Source: a virus
Virus record (IMG/VR): IMGVR_UViG_3300021376_000184
Coordinates: 1-34,817 of that record
DNA: 34,817 bases
Direction: 5' to 3' (one strand)
In this document: positions 4,770-31,425 of the stretch, piece after piece
Layout of the letters: the number at the start of each line of letters is the position of its first letter
Numbering within the stretch: position 1 is the first letter of the stretch
Notes under the pieces: generated by a model
Told to the model about the DNA's origin: nothing
Databases searched by the model: none
Seen by the model: the letters and a program-made list of their open reading frames with translations, nothing else
Position numbers and translations under genes: made by a program

Positions 4770-5447
4770 TTGACGACAATCATCGGAATTCAGGGCGACT
4801 CCTACGCCGTGGTGTGCGCTGACTCGCGCGTCACCGAGGTAGACACCAACGGTCTCGCCACCCAGTCGATGAGCCTCAAGGAGGTCGGCTTCAAGATAGC
4901 CCAGAACGGGCGGTGGCTGATGGGCGTGGCCGGCGACGTGAGGGCGATCAACATCCTCTCGCACGCCTTCGCCCCCCCGATGCCGCCGGCGACCTTCAGG
5001 GGCAAGAAGCTCGACCACTTCGTGACGACCAAGTTCATACCGGCCATGAGGGCCTGCTTCGACGCCGAGGGCTACTCGAGCCCGATAACCGAGACTTCGA
5101 CCCACCAGTCGGAGCACGGGTCCATAATAATTACCGCGATCAACGGCGCCATATACGTCATCGACGGCGACTACTCGTGGCTGAACGACTCCTTCGGGGT
5201 CTACGCGATCGGCTCGGGCGCGCAGTTCGCCCTCGGGTCGCTGGCAACCAGCCTGCCCGCCTCGGGGAGGATCGGGCGCAGGACCGCGAGGCTGGCGGCG
5301 CTGAAGGCGATGGGCGTGGCCGGAAAGTACGACCCCGGCACGGCCGCCCCCTACCACGTGATAGTCCAAGAGGCGAGCCAGAGGCGCGCGGGGAAGGCGC
5401 CCAAGGGCAAGCCGCCCAGAGGCACAAGGGCGAAAAAAACCGGCTAG
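4770..5447 (+). CDS. Proteasome beta/HslV-like Ntn hydrolase
   Basis: TTG start, GAAGG 8 bases upstream, 3 bases after the previous stop. The 225-residue protein begins M-TTIIGIQGDSYAVVCADSR. Removal of Met would expose Thr as the N-terminal nucleophile, and the ADSR Asp then becomes residue 17, as in 20S proteasome beta subunits and HslV. A following VGFKI (Lys at mature ~41) may be the catalytic Lys, and YAIGSGAQFALGSL matches the GSG region. No propeptide is present, like HslV. The C-terminal ~30 residues are basic and Gly/Pro/Lys-rich, an addition not typical of the family. No dedicated AAA partner is adjacent. A peptidase or other Ntn-type amidohydrolase activity is inferred. Confidence 0.8.
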   Translation: MTTIIGIQGDSYAVVCADSRVTEVDTNGLATQSMSLKEVGFKIAQNGRWLMGVAGDVRAINILSHAFAPPMPPATFRGKKLDHFVTTKFIPAMRACFDAEGYSSPITETSTHQSEHGSIIITAINGAIYVIDGDYSWLNDSFGVYAIGSGAQFALGSLATSLPASGRIGRRTARLAALKAMGVAGKYDPGTAAPYHVIVQEASQRRAGKAPKGKPPRGTRAKKTG

Positions 5448-5489: not shown

Positions 5490-5849
5490 ATGCCCAAGAA
5501 GAAGAATCCTAAAGTAGCAACACCCAAGGAATACGTCCCCGACTACGTGGCGATCGCTGCTATGCAATCAAAAGGCGGAAACAAGTGGATGAAGAAGGCC
5601 GCGTGCCGGGGCAAGACGAACCTGATGTTCCCCAAGGAGCACAAGGACATCACGTACATCGCCGAGGCGCGGGCGGTCTGCAGGGATTGCCCCGTGAAGA
5701 CCCCCTGCCTCGCCTACGCGATGCAGTACCCGATGGCAGATATACACGGCGTCTGGGCGGGGTTGACCTCCCGGCAGCTGGCGGCGAAGCAGAAGAAGCT
5801 GGGGATAAAACCGGCGAAGCCCACCCTCTCGCAGATGTGGGGGAACTGA
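5490..5849 (+). CDS. whiB: WhiB-family iron-sulfur transcription regulator
   Basis: This 119-residue protein carries the WhiB signature: Cys39, then Cys64-x2-Cys67-x5-Cys73 (AVCRDCPVKTPCLAYA) to bind a [4Fe-4S] cluster, then HGVWAGLT, the G-[VI]-W turn that contacts the host sigma factor, and a basic tail for DNA. WhiB proteins are confined to Actinobacteria and their phages; phage copies such as WhiBTM4 are known to interfere with host septation and superinfection. The ribosome site is weak and the leader may be only a few bases. It is preceded by an operator-like dyad and is the last plus-strand gene before a convergent minus operon. Confidence 0.93.
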   Translation: MPKKKNPKVATPKEYVPDYVAIAAMQSKGGNKWMKKAACRGKTNLMFPKEHKDITYIAEARAVCRDCPVKTPCLAYAMQYPMADIHGVWAGLTSRQLAAKQKKLGIKPAKPTLSQMWGN

Positions 5850-5851
5850 AG

Positions 5852-5925
5852 CGTCCCCGGCAGGAGTCGAACCTGCGACCTGCGGCTTAGGAAGCCGTCG
5901 CTCTATCCGGCTGAGCTACGGGGAC
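5852..5925 (-). tRNA. tRNA-Arg (anticodon CCT)
   Basis: Read on the minus strand, a full cloverleaf is present: 7-bp acceptor GTCCCCG/CGGGGAC, D stem GCTC/GAGC, anticodon stem with loop TTCCTAA (anticodon CCT, one A-C mismatch at 27-43), 5-base variable loop, and T arm GCAGG-TTCGACT-CCTGC. CCA is not encoded. It reads AGG, a codon rare in high-GC actinobacteria but common in this window, so it likely supports phage translation. Its first base overlaps the stop codon of the upstream minus-strand gene, so it is probably cut from an mRNA. Confidence 0.92.
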
Positions 5926-6275: not shown

Positions 6276-6438
6276 CCCGCCTCATGAGTATCACGAGGTA
6301 CTCGGTCATCGAGCACCCCCAGTTCTCGGAGCGCTCCACGAGCATGTCCTTCTCCTCGGCCGTGAGCCTGAGCGTCACCGTGGACCACCTGCCCGTCGCC
6401 CTCTTGGGCCTCCTGCCCCTAGGCCTGCGACCACTCAC
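6265..6438 (-). CDS. Small ribbon-helix-helix protein (57 aa)
   Basis: GTG start with GGGAG upstream. A basic N-terminal arm (GRRPRGRRPKRATGRW) leads to a beta strand TVTLRLT, helix AEEKDMLVERSENW and helix SMTEYLVILMRR, the classic ribbon-helix-helix order. It overlaps the upstream gene by 20 bases and the downstream RHH gene by 11, so all three are one translational unit. Likely a dimeric DNA-binding regulator; the target is unknown, although the short repeats in this operon are candidates. Confidence 0.8.
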   Translation of the reverse strand: MSGRRPRGRRPKRATGRWSTVTLRLTAEEKDMLVERSENWGCSMTEYLVILMRRDGS

Positions 6439-6640
6439 CGCACCACTCCCAGCCCTGCACGACCGGCTGGGCCTGCTTCACCGACCCGCCCGACCTGCCC
6501 TCGGCGAAGTACATCACCGGGGGGTACCTCCGGCAGTAGCCGGGGCCGGACCCGGAGTCGTCGCCCTCGAACAGGCCCCGGTCGAACCAGCGGCACGTCG
6601 AGCACTCTCGCTCGCGGGAGATGACGCCGACGTCGTTCAC
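6419..6640 (-). CDS. Small Cys-rich protein, CxxC...CRRYPP...WCGEW type (73 aa)
   Basis: GTG start. Visible motifs are CSTCRWF near residue 13, GYCRRYPP near 35 and WCGEW near the C-terminus: four Cys spaced as in a widespread phage and prophage family of short proteins that likely bind zinc or an iron-sulfur centre. The function of that family is, to my knowledge, not established. It is the first gene of the small three-gene unit preceding tRNA-Arg, and it follows a 147-bp repeat-rich gap. Confidence 0.75.
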   Translation of the reverse strand: MNDVGVISRERECSTCRWFDRGLFEGDDSGSGPGYCRRYPPVMYFAEGRSGGSVKQAQPVVQGWEWCGEWSQA

Positions 6641-6787
6641 GGGCAGAACCTACCACAGATATCAGGCGCGCCCGGAACGGCGGACCTCGGGGGAAGGCGG
6701 GAAAACCTTTTCTTCGCCGGGTCTTTTCGTTTTCGCGAAATTTTGTCGCCGGGCTACGGATCGCCGGGCGACGGCGCCCCGCGGGGG
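6641..6787. other. AT-richer intergenic gap with 9-mer repeats and palindromes
   Basis: No gene is visible. The gap holds T-rich runs (CTTTTCTTC, TCTTTTCGTTTTCG), a perfect palindrome TTTCGCGAAA, two exact TCGCCGGGC copies (6746-6754, 6761-6769) plus a near copy at ~6714, and CCCCGCGGGG near 6776. AT-richness, iteron-like repeats and palindromes next to replication-like genes make it a candidate replication origin or regulatory hub. Confidence 0.4.
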
Positions 6788-7267
6788 TCAGCCCTCATCC
6801 TCCACCGTCGGCTTTGGCGCCAGCCTCTGGGCCCACTCCTTGATCGTCTCGTCCCTGACGGCCTCCCACTCGGCGACGAACGCCTGCCTGTCCCTGTCGG
6901 TGAGCCTGTACGCCTCGTCCCCCAGTCGCCGGGTCGCCTCGACCACGGTGGGGTGGGGCTTCGTGCGCGGCTGGGTGCCGGAGTTGGCCGCGCGCACCTG
7001 CTCCTGGAACTGCGCCCACGCCTGCAGGGGGGTGGGGAAACCCCCGAGCATCTCATCCACCACCGTCGATAGTATCTCGCCCGGCGATGGCAGCCACTTC
7101 CTCGTGGCCGCGCCGCCCACGTACGCCTTCCAGACCGTCTGCTCCTCGAGGTGGCCGAGTATGTCCCACCAGGCGCGGAAGGTGTGCTTCTCGTCGGCCT
7201 TCAGCAGGGCCTTGTTGTGGGCCGCGAACACCCGGCGAACCAGATCGGCCAGCTCATCCTTGGTCAT
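6788..7267 (-). CDS. Possible helicase-loader-like replication protein (159 aa)
   Basis: The N-terminal ~65 residues are helical with a pattern FRAWWDILGHLEEQTVWKAY followed by KWLPSPGEI, which recalls the helical domain of phage helicase loader/inhibitor proteins (G39P/DnaI-like: Trp-rich helix, then 'PP/SPG-adI'). The rest is polar and helical with no catalytic motif. The neighbouring gene carries a replication-associated signature, so a replisome accessory role is plausible but low confidence. Its ATG lies inside an ATTGACGGCGGCGCATGA repeat, and its 3' end encodes another copy of that repeat. Confidence 0.6.
   Translation of the reverse strand: MTKDELADLVRRVFAAHNKALLKADEKHTFRAWWDILGHLEEQTVWKAYVGGAATRKWLPSPGEILSTVVDEMLGGFPTPLQAWAQFQEQVRAANSGTQPRTKPHPTVVEATRRLGDEAYRLTDRDRQAFVAEWEAVRDETIKEWAQRLAPKPTVEDEG
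6795..6809 (-). repeat. GACGGTGGAGGATGA repeat copy
   Basis: Member of the gene-junction repeat family (consensus ATTGACGGYGGNGGATGA, minus sense). Here it is the last coding stretch (TVEDEG) of the helicase-loader-like gene. Confidence 0.6.
7053..7070 (-). repeat. ATCGACGGTGGTGGATGA repeat copy (in gene)
   Basis: Member of the same family, one base from the consensus, placed inside the coding region (VVDEML) of the helicase-loader-like gene rather than at a junction. Confidence 0.5.
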
Positions 7268-7526: not shown

Positions 7527-7540
7527 GCGCCGCCGTCAAT
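7523..7540 (-). repeat. ATTGACGGCGGCGCATGA repeat copy (start-associated)
   Basis: Contains the ATG of the 90-aa gene; its first base is the last base of the upstream gene's stop codon region. Identical to 7264-7281. Confidence 0.75.
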
Positions 7541-7941
7541 CAGAAGGCCTCGTGGCCCGGCGACCCGGCGTGGAACTTCGAGACGAACCACTCCACCTTC
7601 TCCGAGTCCCTGAATATCAGCTCGACCGAGTCGTAGCGGACGTTGCTCGGGTTGCGCCCCATGTGCCAGTCGCTCATCGAGCACCCCTTCACGGCCATCT
7701 CGCACGCATCCATCCCGTAGTTCAGTATCGCCCACGCAAGGATAGCCCGCCGCTCGTCGGAAAGCAAGGCCTTCTTGCCGAGCGTGTCGCGCCAGAACCA
7801 GAACAGCCGGTCGACGTCCGCCGGGTCGACCTGCGCCGAGGCGGATTTCCGGCCGCCCGATCTGGCCGACATGGCGCCCTTGACCGGCCTCGCCCTTTTC
7901 TTCTTCTTGGGCGGGGCGTCGACGGGAAACAAAGTCTCCAT
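7540..7941 (-). CDS. Protein with WHMGxN signature, replication-associated family (133 aa)
   Basis: ATG at 7941 is chosen because AGGAGGAAGAG precedes it; an in-frame GTG exists at 7968. After a Lys-rich N-terminus, residues ~45-130 contain VDRLFWFWRDTLG, a hydrophobic helix, then SDWHMGRNPSNVRYDSVELI and FRDSEKVEWFV. This 'WHMG.N....Y....LI.RD...E.F' pattern occurs in many phage and integrative-element proteins, frequently beside or fused to replication functions; its biochemical role is not certain to me. Upstream are a terminator and a strong promoter, so expression may be attenuated. Confidence 0.72.
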   Translation of the reverse strand: METLFPVDAPPKKKKRARPVKGAMSARSGGRKSASAQVDPADVDRLFWFWRDTLGKKALLSDERRAILAWAILNYGMDACEMAVKGCSMSDWHMGRNPSNVRYDSVELIFRDSEKVEWFVSKFHAGSPGHEAF

Positions 7942-7957
7942 CTCTTCCTCCTCGTTC

Positions 7958-7975
7958 TCATCCACCACCGTCAGT
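7958..7975 (-). repeat. ACTGACGGTGGTGGATGA repeat copy (leader)
   Basis: In the leader of the WHMG gene between the terminator and the ribosome site, where it also offers an in-frame GTG. Confidence 0.65.
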
Positions 7976-8335: not shown

Positions 8336-8683
8336 CTAGGAGTTCCCCGGCCTCGGGGGCGACATCTCGTCGGCCTGGTCGGCGATCTGGATCACCATGT
8401 CCTGCATCAGGTTGGACCAGCCCTGCTCGGGGTCGTCCTGCTCCTCGAGCGCGGCGATGCGATCCTTGATCCACTCGTGCGACCAGACGCCTATGAAGGT
8501 GTCGTCGTCCAGCCCCCTGATCGCCTCGAAGTACCCCTTGACGGCGGCGGCCGGCGCGGTGAACGCCTTGAATATTTTCCCGCCGTCGGTGGCGATGAAC
8601 AGGAGGGTCGGGTCGTGGCTCTCGCGGTTGGCCTCGCTCACCACGCGGTTGAACCTGGCGTAGACGCCGTCCTCGTACTTCAT
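8336..8683 (-). CDS. Unknown acidic protein (115 aa)
   Basis: ATG at 8683, preceded by GGTGGAGG inside an ATTGACGGTGGAGGATG repeat, so the repeat supplies its ribosome site. The protein is acidic: an N-terminal alpha/beta stretch (LLFIATDGGKIFKAF), then a helical C-terminal half with WSHEWIKDRIAALEEQ and an Asp/Glu-rich end. No catalytic motif or membrane segment is apparent. The function is not recognised. Confidence 0.72.
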   Translation of the reverse strand: MKYEDGVYARFNRVVSEANRESHDPTLLFIATDGGKIFKAFTAPAAAVKGYFEAIRGLDDDTFIGVWSHEWIKDRIAALEEQDDPEQGWSNLMQDMVIQIADQADEMSPPRPGNS

Positions 8684-8686
8684 GGC

Positions 8687-8704
8687 CCATCCTCCACCGT
8701 CAAT
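8687..8704 (-). repeat. ATTGACGGTGGAGGATGG repeat copy (ribosome site)
   Basis: Ends 3 bases before the ATG of the 115-aa gene; its GGTGGAGG acts as the ribosome binding site. Confidence 0.75.
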
Positions 8705-8765
8705 CAATGATAGCCTAGCCCAGGCGCGCGGAGACCTCCGGCGCGAGAGGAGCCACGTTCTGTCT

Positions 8766-8981
8766 ATGTCATCCCCGAAGGAGACCTCGAAGCCCGCACG
8801 CCCGGCGACGTTCCTCGCCTTCCTCATCACGTGCCTCGCGCACGCGATCATGATCTTCGCCGTCGCCTGGGTGATGCGCGAGAGGGTCGGCGCTATCGAG
8901 TGGGAGATCGAGTGGGTCGACGCGGCGATCCTCGGCCTCGTCGCCGTGTCGTGGCGCGTGTGGCTCCGGCCGCGCACCTAG
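8766..8981 (+). CDS. Small two-pass membrane protein (71 aa)
   Basis: Lone plus-strand gene between minus-strand blocks. AGGAG lies ~12 bases before the ATG. After a polar N-terminus come one hydrophobic segment (about residues 16-38, TFLAFLITCLAHAIMIFAVA), a charged loop and a second one (about 52-66), ending in Arg-Pro-Arg. Likely an inner membrane protein of unknown role. Its stop overlaps the stop of the convergent minus gene. Confidence 0.62.
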   Translation: MSSPKETSKPARPATFLAFLITCLAHAIMIFAVAWVMRERVGAIEWEIEWVDAAILGLVAVSWRVWLRPRT

Positions 8982-9474: not shown

Positions 9475-10920
9475 CTACCTCGGTCGCCCTGCCCCGACAT
9501 CTTTCTTGAGCTTGTCGAGGAGGCTCTTGGCCTCCTTGACGTTCCTGACCACGAGTATCTTCTCTCGCGCCACGAATTTGCTCGCCATCTTGTTTAGTGC
9601 CGGGTGGAATTGGTCGTTCTTCCCCGACACCTGGCAATCGCTCACCCAAACTATCGGCGAGTTCGGGCGTTGCTTGTGCTTCACCGCCCACTTGAGGGCG
9701 GGGAGGTCGACCACGTTGCCCGACCGGAATTGCGGCACGTCGCCCTCCTTGCAGATCCTGCCCTTGTCGGCGAGGACCCAGAAGTTCGGCTCGTCGTCGT
9801 GGTCGCGACGCTCCGTGTACATGGCGACCGTGCAGCCCGGTGCGGCCTCGGCTATCTCTCTCACGTCTCTGTGCTCGAACGACATGGACCCGCTCGCGTC
9901 TATGATGACCACGCCGCCCATGCCTTTGCTGGTACGGTCGAATATCTTGCGGTCGGTGAAGTAGCGGTGCATACGGCGCGGGTTCTTGCCCGTGTCGCTG
10001 GCGACTCGCTTCTTGCCGAGGTTGCCCTTGCTCGCGTGGGGCATGGGCAGTCTCGCCACCCTGAGGTTGCCCCAGTCGGGGATGACGCCCGCGTCGGGCC
10101 TCGATCGCTTCGTCGGGTCGCTCGGCTCGCGCCTCGTCGGCTTCTTGGTCTCGGGCACGTCCTTCTCGGCGGTCTCGGGCTTCTCGGCGCCGGTCGGATC
10201 GGTCGGGGTCGTGGCGTCGGACTCGTCGCCCGACTCGCGCTCCCTGTCTCGGCGCTCGTCCTCCTCGCGCTCGTTTTCCATGTCCTCGATGAGCGAGTCC
10301 ACCCACGCCGCTATGCGCTCGGTGTGCGCGAACCCTCCGGCTTGCGTCTTGGTGGCGACCCTGCCGAGCTCGGCGCTCGGCACGGCGTCCACTTGGGCGA
10401 GCACGTTCTGCTGGATGCTGGCGATGACCTTGGCCATCCCCTTGTCCACAGACCGGACGCCCTTGATCAAATCCTTGCCCCCAGCCGTGCCCGCGGTGGC
10501 GACCGCGGCCCTCACCATCTGCGCTATGTCGCCGCTCTTGGCGAGTTTCTTGCCCAAAGAGTTCTCTGAGCTGTCGGTCAGGTGGCTCGCCACGTCTATC
10601 CCGACGCGGTTGCATAGCGAGTTCACCCGGACCTCCTCGACGGCCCTGAGCGACTCCACCGACGCGTTCTCGCGCGCGAAGTAGTCGATCATCTCTGCCG
10701 GTCCTGGCGAGACCTTGGCATGCATCATCTCGTGGGCGCGTATCGCCCGGTCGAGCTCGTCCTCGCCGTGAGGCGCGACCATCTTTCGCTCGTGGAGGTC
10801 CGTGTGGGGTATGCCGCGCGTGGCGGGCGAGTCGCCCACCACCCAGCGTCCGTGCTCCTGGTCGCTCCTCCCCAGCATTTCCGGCTGGGGCGAGCGCTTG
10901 CGTTCGGCTGTCTTATTCAT
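9475..10920 (-). CDS. VWA-domain protein with N-terminal HExxH metallopeptidase-like region
   Basis: This 481-residue partner of the MoxR ATPase has three visible parts. Residues ~40-115 include AIRAHEMMHAK (HExxH, 63-67) and a downstream Glu pair (EEVRVN, 95-96), as in zincin metallopeptidases. Residues ~215-275 are a charged Glu/Arg/Lys linker. Residues ~335-480 form a von Willebrand A domain with MIDAS motif DASGSMS (341-347). The layout resembles CobT-like and DUF2201-type proteins that work with MoxR AAA+ ATPases. It is co-translated with the ATPase (TGATG). Role inferred: ATP-driven remodelling, metal insertion or targeted proteolysis; the target is unknown. Confidence 0.85.
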   Translation of the reverse strand: MNKTAERKRSPQPEMLGRSDQEHGRWVVGDSPATRGIPHTDLHERKMVAPHGEDELDRAIRAHEMMHAKVSPGPAEMIDYFARENASVESLRAVEEVRVNSLCNRVGIDVASHLTDSSENSLGKKLAKSGDIAQMVRAAVATAGTAGGKDLIKGVRSVDKGMAKVIASIQQNVLAQVDAVPSAELGRVATKTQAGGFAHTERIAAWVDSLIEDMENEREEDERRDRERESGDESDATTPTDPTGAEKPETAEKDVPETKKPTRREPSDPTKRSRPDAGVIPDWGNLRVARLPMPHASKGNLGKKRVASDTGKNPRRMHRYFTDRKIFDRTSKGMGGVVIIDASGSMSFEHRDVREIAEAAPGCTVAMYTERRDHDDEPNFWVLADKGRICKEGDVPQFRSGNVVDLPALKWAVKHKQRPNSPIVWVSDCQVSGKNDQFHPALNKMASKFVAREKILVVRNVKEAKSLLDKLKKDVGAGRPR

Positions 10921-11651
10921 CAGGCGACCCCGTCCACCTTGATCGCGTCGAGCAGGTCGCCCGAGCGGTCAAGGAATATAATTTTCGCCGCCTTCTTGTC
11001 GCCCAGTTCGGTGCGAAGTCGGTCGAAGTCGTAGAACGCCCGAAGCGAGATGCGTCGCTCGCCTGCGTCGGCCATGCGAATGGCGAACTTGTGCAGGTCG
11101 GGCGACAACCGCTTGAGGGCGTCGGGGTGAGGCTGGTTGATTCGCACGCGGACCGGGAATCGGTCGGCGAGTGCGGTCGGCAACTCCTCCATCTGCTCGA
11201 GGTTCGTGGTCATCACCGCGCTGAAGCCGGCGAGAGGACGGATCACCTCGCCGCTCGTCGGGTGCGTCCAAGACGCCGACTCTGCCGTGTCGAGCATCGC
11301 GAGCAATGTCGCCGCGACGTCGCCGCTCGCCTTGTCGATCTCGTCCACGACGAGCCTGCCGCCCCTCTTACCGTCGCCCTGCCAAGCCTTGAGGGCCGAG
11401 CCGTAGTTCCAGGTGAACGTTCCCTTCTCGTTCGGGATGAAGCACCCCGTCACTTCCGCGGTGGTCATGTCCTCGGTGCAGATGAGCCGGTGCGAGCCTG
11501 CTTGGACGTCGCCGTAGGCGAGGCCTGCGTAGGTCTTGCCGAGTCCCGGCGGCCCGAACAGGATCAGTCGGTCAATGCCTGCGTTGAGGCACTCCTCTAC
11601 TGTCTGCCAGCACTCGGGGAGTGCGGGCTTGGTCTTACTTGTCGTGGTCAT
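10920..11651 (-). CDS. MoxR-family AAA+ ATPase
   Basis: The 243-residue protein has Walker A GPPGLGKT (33-40), Walker B RLVVDEIDKA (99-108), sensor-1 MTTN (Asn150) and an arginine-finger context ADRFPVRV (Arg164), the order seen in MoxR/CobS-type AAA+ proteins. These pair with VWA-domain proteins, and the next gene is exactly that, overlapping by one base. The enzyme would hydrolyse ATP to remodel a target recruited by the VWA partner. AAAGGAG precedes the ATG. Transcription is from the P-type promoter just upstream, inside the end of the preceding gene. Confidence 0.9.
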   Translation of the reverse strand: MTTTSKTKPALPECWQTVEECLNAGIDRLILFGPPGLGKTYAGLAYGDVQAGSHRLICTEDMTTAEVTGCFIPNEKGTFTWNYGSALKAWQGDGKRGGRLVVDEIDKASGDVAATLLAMLDTAESASWTHPTSGEVIRPLAGFSAVMTTNLEQMEELPTALADRFPVRVRINQPHPDALKRLSPDLHKFAIRMADAGERRISLRAFYDFDRLRTELGDKKAAKIIFLDRSGDLLDAIKVDGVA

Positions 11652-11687: not shown

Positions 11688-11718
11688 ACTTTACTGACCC
11701 GTCATCTTTCGGCGCGCC
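11688..11718 (-). promoter_or_regulatory. P-type promoter for MoxR-VWA operon
   Basis: First member of a family of about 28, called 'P-type' here. Family pattern: YGCGCC, three bases (mostly GAA-like), GGAT plus two bases, 7-8 variable bases, then a -10 of the form YANNNT; the YGCGCC-to-YANNNT distance is 16-17 bp. Here the box reads CGCGCCGAAAGATGA and the -10 is TAAAGT. It lies inside the last codons of the upstream gene. Confidence 0.75.
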
Positions 11719-12296
11719 CATTCCAAGCCCCATGTCGTCCACATGTGCTCGATTCCGGCGTAGACGGCTTCGTTGATGGTGCCGCCTGGGTCCTGGTTCT
11801 CGTCGTCCCAGTCGGTGTCGAAGCTGGCGGTCCAACCGTCCGGCAGCGTGATCGTGCCGCTCGCGGGGTCGTAATCGTGGTGCTGCTCGTGGACGCACTC
11901 GCCGCCGAGGTACTGCTCGATCCCGAAGAAACACATCCCCGGCTCCTCGTACTCGACGTCTATCGTCACGCCCGGGTGTTGCCGCGATATCTCCTTGACG
12001 AGGCCGCTCATCGGCCCCCATGCGGTGTTGTACCCGACCGACGCCGTGCCGGTGCCGTCCGAGTACTCCTCGCTGCAGATGTCCGTGTCGCAGTCGCCCC
12101 ACTTGGTTCCCCACGTGTCGTACTGCCAGTCCACCGAGCCGATCAGCTCGCCCTTCTCGTCCCTCGGCTGGGGCATGAACTTGGTGAACGTCGCGTCGTC
12201 CGTCTTGCCCTCGACCGGGCGAACCGCGTCGAGGATCGCCCGGACCTGGTCCTCCGGTCCGTGCAGGACCATGTTGTTGTTGCACCAGTTAGGCAT
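11691..12296 (-). CDS. Api92-like / DUF1281-type protein (201 aa)
   Basis: The N-terminus MPNWCNNNMVLHGPEDQV is the hallmark of the Api92-like (DUF1281) family found on phages and mobile elements, whose fold is described as ferredoxin-like and whose function is unknown. The remainder is Trp/Asp/Gly-rich with conserved-looking DTWGTKW and YNTAWGP motifs and a patch of HEQHHDYD. The start overlaps the upstream gene by 8 bases. Its last ten codons coincide with the P-type promoter of the MoxR gene, so the WARRKMTGQ tail is constrained by that promoter. Confidence 0.82.
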   Translation of the reverse strand: MPNWCNNNMVLHGPEDQVRAILDAVRPVEGKTDDATFTKFMPQPRDEKGELIGSVDWQYDTWGTKWGDCDTDICSEEYSDGTGTASVGYNTAWGPMSGLVKEISRQHPGVTIDVEYEEPGMCFFGIEQYLGGECVHEQHHDYDPASGTITLPDGWTASFDTDWDDENQDPGGTINEAVYAGIEHMWTTWGLEWARRKMTGQ

Positions 12297-29504: not shown

Positions 29505-29529
29505 GCGATGAATGGTAGCCTATAAAACC

Positions 29530-31425
29530 ATGGGCGAACCCACCGAGAAGGGCCGCATGATCCTCAGCGACGACCATCTCCTGCTCCGCTGGCCCTTCGA
29601 CAGGGACGAGGTCGACTCGATCAAGAGGATCGTCGGCGCGAAATGGGACAGGGTCAACCGCGCGTGGCGCGTCCCGATGACGTCCCTCGGCCCGGCGAGG
29701 CAATTCGCCGCGGACATCGGCCTGACGATCGACCCCGAGGTCCTCGTCCTCGACGTTCCGGCCCACAAGAACCCGCTCTCCGGCATGAGGAGGGACGGCG
29801 ACTACATCTACCTGTCCTTCGCGTACGACCCGGTGCGCGTCCGCGAGGTCAAGAAGATACCCGGCGTCACTTTCGACTCGAAAACCAAGGCCTGGAGGGC
29901 GCCGATCTCGTCGATCTCACAGTCGATCGCATGGTCGAGGGCCTTCCGGATCCACGTCCCGGACGAATTGGTCGAGGAGGCGGAGCGGATTAGGGCCGAA
30001 ATGGAGGTCGCGCTGTCCGAATCGCGCTCGACCGGCGCGGAAATCTCCATCGCCGGGTTCCCGCAGCTCATGCCGTACCAGAAAGCCGGCGTCAGGTACG
30101 CCGTCAACCGCCGGAAATGCTTCATCGCGGACGAGATGGGGCTCGGAAAGACGCTCCAGGCCATAGCCGCCGTCGAGGAAATGTCCAGATCCGGGTCGGT
30201 CTACCCGATCGTGGTGGTCTGCCCGGCGAATCTGACCCTGAATTGGGCCAAGGAGTACTCGAAATGGCTCCCGGAGCGGCGCGTCGCCGTCATTTCCGGC
30301 AGGAAAAACTTCCCGGAACACGGGACTTACGACGTTCTGGTGGTCGGATACCCGAATCTGGCCGCCTGGCAGGCCCATTTGACCGGATTCGGCGGGTACG
30401 TGTTCGACGAGAGCCACTATCTCAAGACGTACGGCACGCAGAGGACGAAGGCGGCGATCAAAATCGTCCGCCGGGCATCCGGCGAGGCCCCGATCATGCT
30501 CCTCACGGGCACGCCGGTGGCCTCGAGGCCCGCTGAGTACGTCTCCCAGCTCGACATTCTGGGCCATCTGGACAACTTCGGTGGCCGCTGGGGCTTCTAC
30601 AGGCGCTACTGCGACGCCCATCGCGACAAATTCGGCCAATGGAGGCTCGACGGCCACTCGAACCTCGAGGAATTGAACTCGACGCTGCGATCGACCTGCT
30701 ACATAAGGCGCACGAAGGACCAGGTGCTCGAGGATTTGCCGCCGGTGTTCGAGTCGGCCATGTATTTCGATGGCTCGGAGCTCGGGAAACGGGACTACGA
30801 GGCCGCGGAGGCCGATCTGGGCGCGTGGCTCGAGCAGAATGGCCGCCGGACGGGCGCGCCGGAGCAGCTCGCGCGCATCTCGGTGCTCCGGAGGCTCGCG
30901 GCGGAGGCGAAATTGCCGGGCGTGCTGGAGTTGGTCGACGAAATGGTCGCGGCGGGGCGCAAGGTGGTCGTCGCGGCCCACCACCGGGAGGTCGTCGACG
31001 AGATCGCCGCCCGCTACGGGGGCCTGAAGATACAGGGAGGCATGTCGGCGGCCGACGTCGAGGCCGCCAAGGGCAGGTTCCAGGGGAATCCGGTCGAGGA
31101 GAGCCCCGTGATAGTGCTCTCCATAGAGGCGGCGAAGACCGGGCACACCCTGACGGCGGCGCAGGACATAGTTTTCGTCGAGATGCCGTGGACCCCGGCC
31201 GACGTGCAGCAGACCTACAGCCGCCTGCACCGGATCGGGCAGCGCGGATCGGTCCGGGTGGTCTACGCGCTGCTCGCCGGCAGCATCGACGAGGACATCC
31301 ACCGCACGATATCGCGCAAGGAGGAGATAGTCGCCGGGGCGGTCGACGGCGGCGACGTGGTGGAGATGGTGAGGCGCCGCGTGGCGAGCCGCCTCAGGAC
31401 TTCTCGGCCCCCATCTTCGCCATGA
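29530..31425 (+). CDS. SNF2-family helicase (SMARCAL1/HARP-like) with duplicated N-terminal domain
   Basis: ATG at 29530 follows a TATAAA (about 29520-29525), suggesting a leaderless transcript; ATG 29512 is an alternative. Residues ~12-50 (SDDHLLLRWPFDRDEVDSIK ... RVNRAWRVP) and ~92-125 (DGDYIYLSFAYDPVRVREVK ... SKTKAWRAP) are two copies of a HARP-like annealing domain. The motor has Walker A DEMGLGKT (~201-208), DESH (~293-296, in place of DEAH), LLTGTP (~324-329) and motif VI QTYSRLHRIGQ. Like SMARCAL1, it may anneal or remodel forked DNA. Its end overlaps the convergent gene by 32 bases. Confidence 0.9.
   Translation: MGEPTEKGRMILSDDHLLLRWPFDRDEVDSIKRIVGAKWDRVNRAWRVPMTSLGPARQFAADIGLTIDPEVLVLDVPAHKNPLSGMRRDGDYIYLSFAYDPVRVREVKKIPGVTFDSKTKAWRAPISSISQSIAWSRAFRIHVPDELVEEAERIRAEMEVALSESRSTGAEISIAGFPQLMPYQKAGVRYAVNRRKCFIADEMGLGKTLQAIAAVEEMSRSGSVYPIVVVCPANLTLNWAKEYSKWLPERRVAVISGRKNFPEHGTYDVLVVGYPNLAAWQAHLTGFGGYVFDESHYLKTYGTQRTKAAIKIVRRASGEAPIMLLTGTPVASRPAEYVSQLDILGHLDNFGGRWGFYRRYCDAHRDKFGQWRLDGHSNLEELNSTLRSTCYIRRTKDQVLEDLPPVFESAMYFDGSELGKRDYEAAEADLGAWLEQNGRRTGAPEQLARISVLRRLAAEAKLPGVLELVDEMVAAGRKVVVAAHHREVVDEIAARYGGLKIQGGMSAADVEAAKGRFQGNPVEESPVIVLSIEAAKTGHTLTAAQDIVFVEMPWTPADVQQTYSRLHRIGQRGSVRVVYALLAGSIDEDIHRTISRKEEIVAGAVDGGDVVEMVRRRVASRLRTSRPPSSP

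Follow-up and report, generated by a model that had tools for sequence, protein, structure and literature searches.

A viral AAA+ ATPase gene overlapping the gene of a VWA protein with a conserved, putative zincin domain and a replication-side location

The minus strand of a viral record of 34,817 bases, which was analysed at its full length and is called the window hereafter, carries an AAA+ ATPase ORF and a second ORF that combines an HExxH motif with a VWA domain. With moderate confidence we propose that both products form a two-component AAA+ remodelling machine of the replication phase, the adaptor of which also carries a putative zinc metallopeptidase. The ATPase would form a hexamer, on which the VWA domain would dock in the manner of NorQ-NorD and CbbQ-CbbO; the motor may pull on or remodel a target recognised via the VWA domain, and the putative peptidase may cut the exposed target. 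Judging from the gene position, the pair would act during replication, in the early or middle phase, and not in virion assembly; the leading guess for its target is a phage or host protein that belongs to the replisome, takes part in transcription or is bound to DNA. A MoxR-vWA-metallopeptidase pair has already been proposed for the group 2.2 jumbo phages in a passage of PMC7824862. Since phage MoxR-VWA-peptidase pairs are published, the window pair is a new, separate branch; its family is abundant, belongs to a kind of machine that is ordinary in outline, keeps its putative zincin core intact and is located at the side of the replication genes.

The junction of the two genes reads TGATG, with the ATPase stop codon TGA at 10922-10920 and the partner start codon ATG at 10920-10918. 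The one-base overlap described in an earlier note on this DNA is therefore confirmed, the shared base being the A at 10920. The DASGSMS of the VWA protein (starting at residue 341) and the N-terminal HEMMH (residues 63-67) with a downstream EE (residues 95-96), which the same note had pointed out, were likewise recovered. All features of the pair and its conserved neighbours are listed in Table 1.

Table 1. Features of the overlapping gene pair and of the neighbouring genes in the window.
Feature	Position	Strand	Basis
AAA_5-type (NorQ/CbbQ/Midasin-like) ATPase, 243 aa	10920..11651	minus	ORF, Pfam, invariant motifs, profile matches
Walker A GPPGLGKT, residues 33-40	11532..11555	minus	sequence and alignment
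HExxH-VWA partner, 481 aa	9475..10920	minus	ORF; AlphaFold model m25cf8ed0c6c8; 76 viral relatives
Zincin-like N-domain, ~residues 1-232	10225..10920	minus	model m8cdd76bce9bb, residues 1-236
HEMMH, residues 63-67, helix 55-70	10720..10734	minus	sequence, models, conservation
EEVRVN, residues 95-100, helix 88-105	10621..10638	minus	alignments, N-domain model
VWA domain, ~residues 300-478	9487..10023	minus	VIA-align structural matches
MIDAS DASGSM, residues 341-346	9883..9900	minus	invariant residues in alignments
Conserved neighbour ORF, true start probably internal	8336..8977	minus	similar ORF in 28/35 loci with room
O-like replication initiator	7540..7968	minus	phrog_16167 E 2.9e-9; 24/32 loci with room
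Helicase-loader-like protein	6788..7267	minus	phrog_109 E 1.5e-4, phrog_2289 E 1.3e-3; 22/30 loci with room

The ATPase had been labelled a MoxR ATPase in the earlier note. It is indeed MoxR-like, but its Pfam family is AAA_5 (E 4.4e-12, 46.6 bits against a curated cut-off of 22), whereas its score for AAA_3, i.e., MoxR proper, is 21.1 bits and falls below the cut-off of 27. With regard to the MoxR-vWA ternary conflict systems, which have VMAP, iSTAND, FtsH or a beta-propeller as third component, only bpMoxR was matched, with 13.1 bits against a cut-off of 27. Among solved structures, the ATPase profile matched Midasin (6.7e-39), NorQ (6.4e-10), and CbbQ (2e-9 and 7.9e-9), and the top PHROGs were phrog_16448, annotated as 'ATPase' (5e-32), and phrog_249, annotated as 'porphyrin biosynthesis' (E 1.6e-10). 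In an alignment of 36 sequences, G33, G36, G38, and K39 of Walker A, D103 and E104 of Walker B, N150, D163-R164-F165, and R200/S202/R204 are invariant; N150 and R164 are presumably the sensor 1 residue and the Arg finger of AAA+ ATPases, respectively. The ATPase tree separates virus and cell records into two sets with one crossing: 15 out of 16 cell-record rows fall into one clade (100/100), and L082 is placed among the viruses.

By its DxSxS motif and the fold match of the model, the C-terminal part of the partner qualifies as a MIDAS-type VWA domain. D341, S343, S345, and D428 are invariant across 39 diverse relatives, and M346 is invariant, like D341, S343, and S345, in two alignments of relatives. 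The VWA model matched the VWA domain of CMG2 (8fzu) over 133 residues with a VIA-align Z of 9.5 and an rmsd of 3.0, and Rea1-MIDAS (6qt8) with a Z of 7.3. None of the Pfam VWA families matched the window partner protein itself.

For the N-terminal domain (residues 1-236, 101 sequences) AlphaFold returned a model with pLDDT 95.7 and pTM 0.90. Three short strands are followed by the HExxH helix, a helix at 74-83, the helix with EExRVN, and more helices, an order which we take to match that of the minigluzincins, and the HExxH helix and the EE helix are neighbours in the model. Foldseek against the PDB gave the minigluzincin selecase as top match, with a weak E of 0.53. VIA matches were weak as well; the best (Z 3.8) is a non-peptidase and zincins reach 3.5 at most, with many of the rows over the HExxH region being zincins. 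Jannalysin, abylysin, ArdC, LTA4H, protealysin, collagenase T, MATCAP, and CapP are among these weak matches. In a profile search of solved-structure sequences, ferritin was obtained with E 0.36 and MJ1213 (selecase) with 0.97, the latter on the HExxH helix. In the viral library, unnamed phage proteins ranked first (E 4e-4 and 7e-4), 'Cobalt chelatase, CobT subunit' was found with E 3.9e-3, and several VWFA-domain proteins ranked lower. By these weak scores, gluzincins appear to be the nearest solved folds of the modelled domain. With its HExxH helix and a conserved downstream acid on a second helix, it qualifies as a putative gluzincin-type zincin, with E96 as candidate third metal ligand.

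The peptide AHEMMHAK served as search pattern in the first viral scan, which yielded 76 viral loci. As the 75 HEMMH matches were biased by this pattern, the count was set aside and the scan was redone with VWA-only patterns, which gave at least 256 encoding stretches in viral contigs, 80 of which were fetched. HExxH and EExRxN are kept in all 73 fetched loci with a complete 5' end, the motif being spelled differently from AHEMMHA in 46 of these 73 proteins; the other 7 of the 80 loci run off the contig before the N-terminus. Proteins from cellular records with a spelling other than AHEMMHA contain HExxH in 62 out of 62 uncut cases and [ED]ExRxN in 61 out of 62, the remaining one being masked. 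The motif-finding pattern needs both His, so that a lost His would appear as an absent motif, and every protein without the motif is cut by, or starts near, a contig end. Conservation of His and Glu in relatives, which the earlier note had set as a check, is thus borne out in both viral and cellular proteins, and these counts indicate that the HExxH of the partner is more than a chance match. Due to a filter that demanded HExxH and [ED]ExRxN, the invariance of H63, E64, H67, E96, R98, and N100 in alignment A6 arises partly by construction and is therefore not counted as evidence of conservation.

Except for L031, which starts at a contig end, the ATPase gene is situated immediately 5' of the partner gene in the viral loci of the first scan (75 of 76). 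It adjoins the partner gene in 69 of 74 cellular-record loci, the other five beginning at or near a contig end, and is present in 72 of the 80 viral loci found with VWA patterns, the rest being cut by contig ends apart from L221, which starts close to one. Using the window VWA protein and two relatives as tblastn queries, no direct homologue was detected in cultured phages, and window bases 1-25000 have no DNA relatives among phages. Microbacterium phage Zooman encodes a lone AAA-ATPase without an annotated VWA neighbour.

The earlier note had placed the pair among the MoxR-VWA-metallopeptidase modules and had related it to CobS/CobT-like and DUF2201-type systems. The module type holds, given the conserved HExxH and the EE on a nearby helix, and both relations were the right leads, but membership of DUF2201 or CobT is not supported, as the HMM check gave no Pfam match and true CobT has no HExxH. 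At E<=1 the window partner matches neither DUF2201_N (PF13203) nor the CobT models PF06213 and PF11775 (CobT_C), and PF13203 is not among the best 25 families listed for 37 members of the window family. In contrast, N4 gp25 (E 3.1e-87), Delftia RG-2014 gp36, and Salicola SCTP-2 match PF13203 strongly. The pairs of the jumbo phages and N4 (gp24/gp25) resemble the window pair in that an AAA ATPase gene is located near a gene for a protein with an HExxH N-domain and a VWA C-domain, and the N4 pair also shares the location in the replication region. The position of the candidate third ligand is occupied by Asp in DUF2201_N proteins and by Glu in the window family.

In case of the cyanophages (Kyanoviridae), 'peptidase' and 'CobS' share HExxHAxx[ST]P, E[ED]xR[VI], a VWA domain, an AAA_5 partner, and the location in a replication block with the window pair, but the peptidase comprises 714 aa and the gene order is reversed (peptidase before ATPase). 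HExxH and EDxRI are invariant in the 10 aligned cyanophage peptidases, which represent 10 of 463 matching records. In profile-profile comparisons, the figures of which are pairwise and not database E-values (five N-versus-VWA controls gave 0.2-0.87), the best match of the window N-domain was that of the cyanophages (prob 74, E 2.8e-5, motifs in register), the match to the DUF2201_N N-domain was weak (P 0.0017-0.0024, HExxH and [D/E]xx[IV]N in register, including the acidic position and Asn), and cyanophage and DUF2201 N-domains matched with 5.8e-4 and motifs in register; the window VWA domain matched that of DUF2201 with E 1.1e-7 and was weakly similar to that of the cyanophages (E 5.5e-4, 17 columns), and the comparison of the window with 19 CobT gave E 0.33. 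EEVRVN of the window is in register with A-x-D-x-x-IN of DUF2201_N and with NVxEDxRIE of the cyanophage peptidases. NorQ-NorD, CbbQ-CbbO, and Midasin/Rea1, which are known or proposed to act on NO reductase, rubisco, and pre-60S ribosomes, respectively, are similar in ATPase profile and MIDAS-VWA partner; these systems are not known to contain an HExxH domain.

Neighbouring genes were counted in 36 representatives and the window, with ORFs clustered by BLAST, and the genes of the O-like initiator and the helicase-loader-like protein sit downstream of the viral pair. Of 13 long contigs, 8 yielded a TerL match (phrog_2), and in all of these 8 the pair is located on the opposite strand to the terminase gene, at a circular distance of 65-85 kb. 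Similar pairs lie among replication genes in independent lineages, too: in cyanophages the pair is situated between gp46/47 and the sliding-clamp/clamp-loader genes gp45/44/62, as is that of Ochrobactrum phage OC, and N4 gp25 is followed by a dCTP deaminase gene, with helicase and DNA polymerase genes further on. The location of the genes is thus circumstantial evidence for a role in the replication phase. An RNR large chain is encoded in 13 of 16 long viral relatives (G479-G494), and a class I small chain in none of 13 long viral contigs; the terminase and small-chain searches covered 13 of the 16 contigs, the three omitted having no RNR match. The long viral relatives probably encode a class II or III RNR. 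The location of the chromosomal pair near nrdR, together with the viral RNR large chain, had prompted the idea of RNR activation by the pair; since the viral RNR is situated tens of kilobases from the pair, synteny gives no support there and the idea is retained as no more than a remark.

The scan of cellular genomes revealed 74 loci, mostly in Acidimicrobiia and other actinobacterial MAGs and partly on contigs of up to 1.2 Mb, and 17 of the 296 members of the class Acidimicrobiia that were drawn encode the partner protein. In L143, the genes 3' of the pair encode a LysM protein, NrdR, a BshB1-like deacetylase, and DinB, and corresponding downstream genes occur in 38 of 43 cellular loci of at least 13 kb. 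L143, L147, L150, L098, and others share a conserved setting, in some cases with liv-type ABC transporter genes upstream. Phage genes are absent from the annotated flanking genes of the chromosomal copies in Acidimicrobiia. That these chromosomes bear the module suggests that cells make use of it, too. On a 281 kb contig of an actinobacterial MAG (L084), an extra VWA gene (6297-7025, plus strand; PF00092 E 7.9e-7) is located directly upstream of the pair.

A role of the pair in virion assembly, as a chaperone that also processes structural proteins by peptidolysis, appears unlikely to us. It has been proposed for the jumbo-phage pair in the passage of PMC7824862 mentioned above, and would agree with the analogy to Acidianus two-tailed virus and the AAA-VWA pairs of archaeal viruses, including a tail chaperone, cited in a section of PMC7911831, as well as with roseophage RPP1, where some virion genes lie near homologues of N4 gp24/25 according to a part of PMC4193335. 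Against this role stand the opposite strand and the large distance to the terminase in 8 out of 8 long contigs, the replication genes next to the pair, and the chromosomal copies in Acidimicrobiia without phage genes among their annotated flanks. We also consider it improbable that the adaptor kept the zincin fold and stopped cutting, the pair then acting by remodelling or activation alone, in the manner of NorQD, CbbQO, and RavA-ViaA, which are not known to need proteolysis. The degenerate H/E..R.E arrangement of cellular CobT, in which E..R.E occupies a place comparable to the window motif, speaks in favour of such a loss, and systems of this type are described as activases or chaperones in the abstracts of PMC4660213 and PMC9489729. 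But a non-cutting adaptor is expected to drift at Glu64 and the His residues, so that the invariance of Glu64 and both His in all unbiased full-length relatives, most of which share only about 25-43% identity with the window partner, counts against this reading.

Very little credence is given to the explanation that the pair aids cobalt insertion by the host CobN and boosts cobalamin for a B12-dependent ribonucleotide reductase. It is the published reading of viral CobST as a cobalamin booster in passages of PMC8651126, in which the cyanophage 'peptidase' next to CobS is called CobT, and it would fit the match of the window ATPase to phrog_249 as well as the RNR counts in the long viral contigs, by which a B12-dependent RNR is possible there. 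Cellular CobS/CobT resembles the window pair in the combination of AAA_5 and VWA, but none of 19 true CobT ORFs contains the HExxH that is invariant in the window family (CobT matches occurred in 32 genomes, 20 of which were retrieved, and 19 of the 20 loci, all but L298, gave a motif-filtered ORF). Besides the lacking matches of the partner to the CobT models, the window ATPase does not match TIGR01650 CobS at E<=0.1, and CobS of the cyanophages and the Ochrobactrum phage reaches 67-95 bits on this model, far below its equivalog cut-off of 558.55 bits. Furthermore, cellular CobT needs CobN, which was found in 0 of 15 cellular genomes carrying the pair (MAGs of unstated completeness) and in 5 of 14 control genomes; the test covered 15 of 17 carriers, with G153 omitted for its virus-like look and G170 for being matched in odd pieces.

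Distant relatives of the pair in other phages usually bear a vitamin B12 label, against which the sequences analysed here speak, and the published view that the 'peptidase' label is a mistake looks doubtful. The 'peptidase/CobT' proteins of cyanophages and the Ochrobactrum phage in L270, L278, L279, and L280 keep HExxH and sit with CobS; their neighbours are replication genes where annotated in L270, L279, and L280, and mostly unannotated in L278. Returning to the replication-phase machine proposed here, a wider reading is offered as a tentative possibility, and one we would not yet bet on: cobS and cobT/peptidase as found in cyanophages and in tailed viruses of archaea, the gp24/gp25 genes of N4-like phages, the window pair, and its Acidimicrobiia cousin might be branches of one ancient replication-acting AAA+/VWA metalloprotease machine and not cobalamin genes, with cellular CobT as a relative that lost HExxH. 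Possible substrates of this machine would be stalled, DNA-bound or host replication/transcription proteins. According to PMC3037559, cobS belongs to the core genes of the marine T4-like cyanophages, and in Table 3 of PMC4193335, gp24 and gp25 belong to the core of N4-like phages, gp24 being listed as unknown and gp25 with a vWFA domain only. Our literature search, of incomplete coverage, returned no printed link of the cyanophage CobS/peptidase pair to the MoxR-VWA-metallopeptidase idea. If these genes do encode AAA-powered metallopeptidases of the replication phase, their common assignment as auxiliary metabolic genes falls, and the long-standing question about core phage genes becomes testable by mutating single residues of HExxH and Walker A. 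With the window branch, a cobalamin annotation carried by well-known phages comes to look doubtful.

Several further genes were observed in the window. Immediately 5' of the ATPase gene, a DUF1281_C/Api92-like protein is encoded (11691-12296, minus strand), with relatives in 19 of 37 loci. A gene for an HslV/proteasome-like Ntn-hydrolase (4770-5447, plus strand; phrog_1040 E 1.6e-21) has similar ORFs in 8 of 37 loci, 26 of which offer room for one. A WhiB-like regulator is encoded at 5490-5849 on the plus strand (E 5.3e-15) and has similar ORFs in 14 of the 37 loci; due to this regulator an actinobacterial host of the window phage is likely. A tRNA-Arg gene with anticodon CCT (5851-5925, minus strand) is located between genes of opposite orientation, and a SNF2-type helicase is encoded at 29512-31425 on the plus strand (phrog_62 E 3.1e-100).
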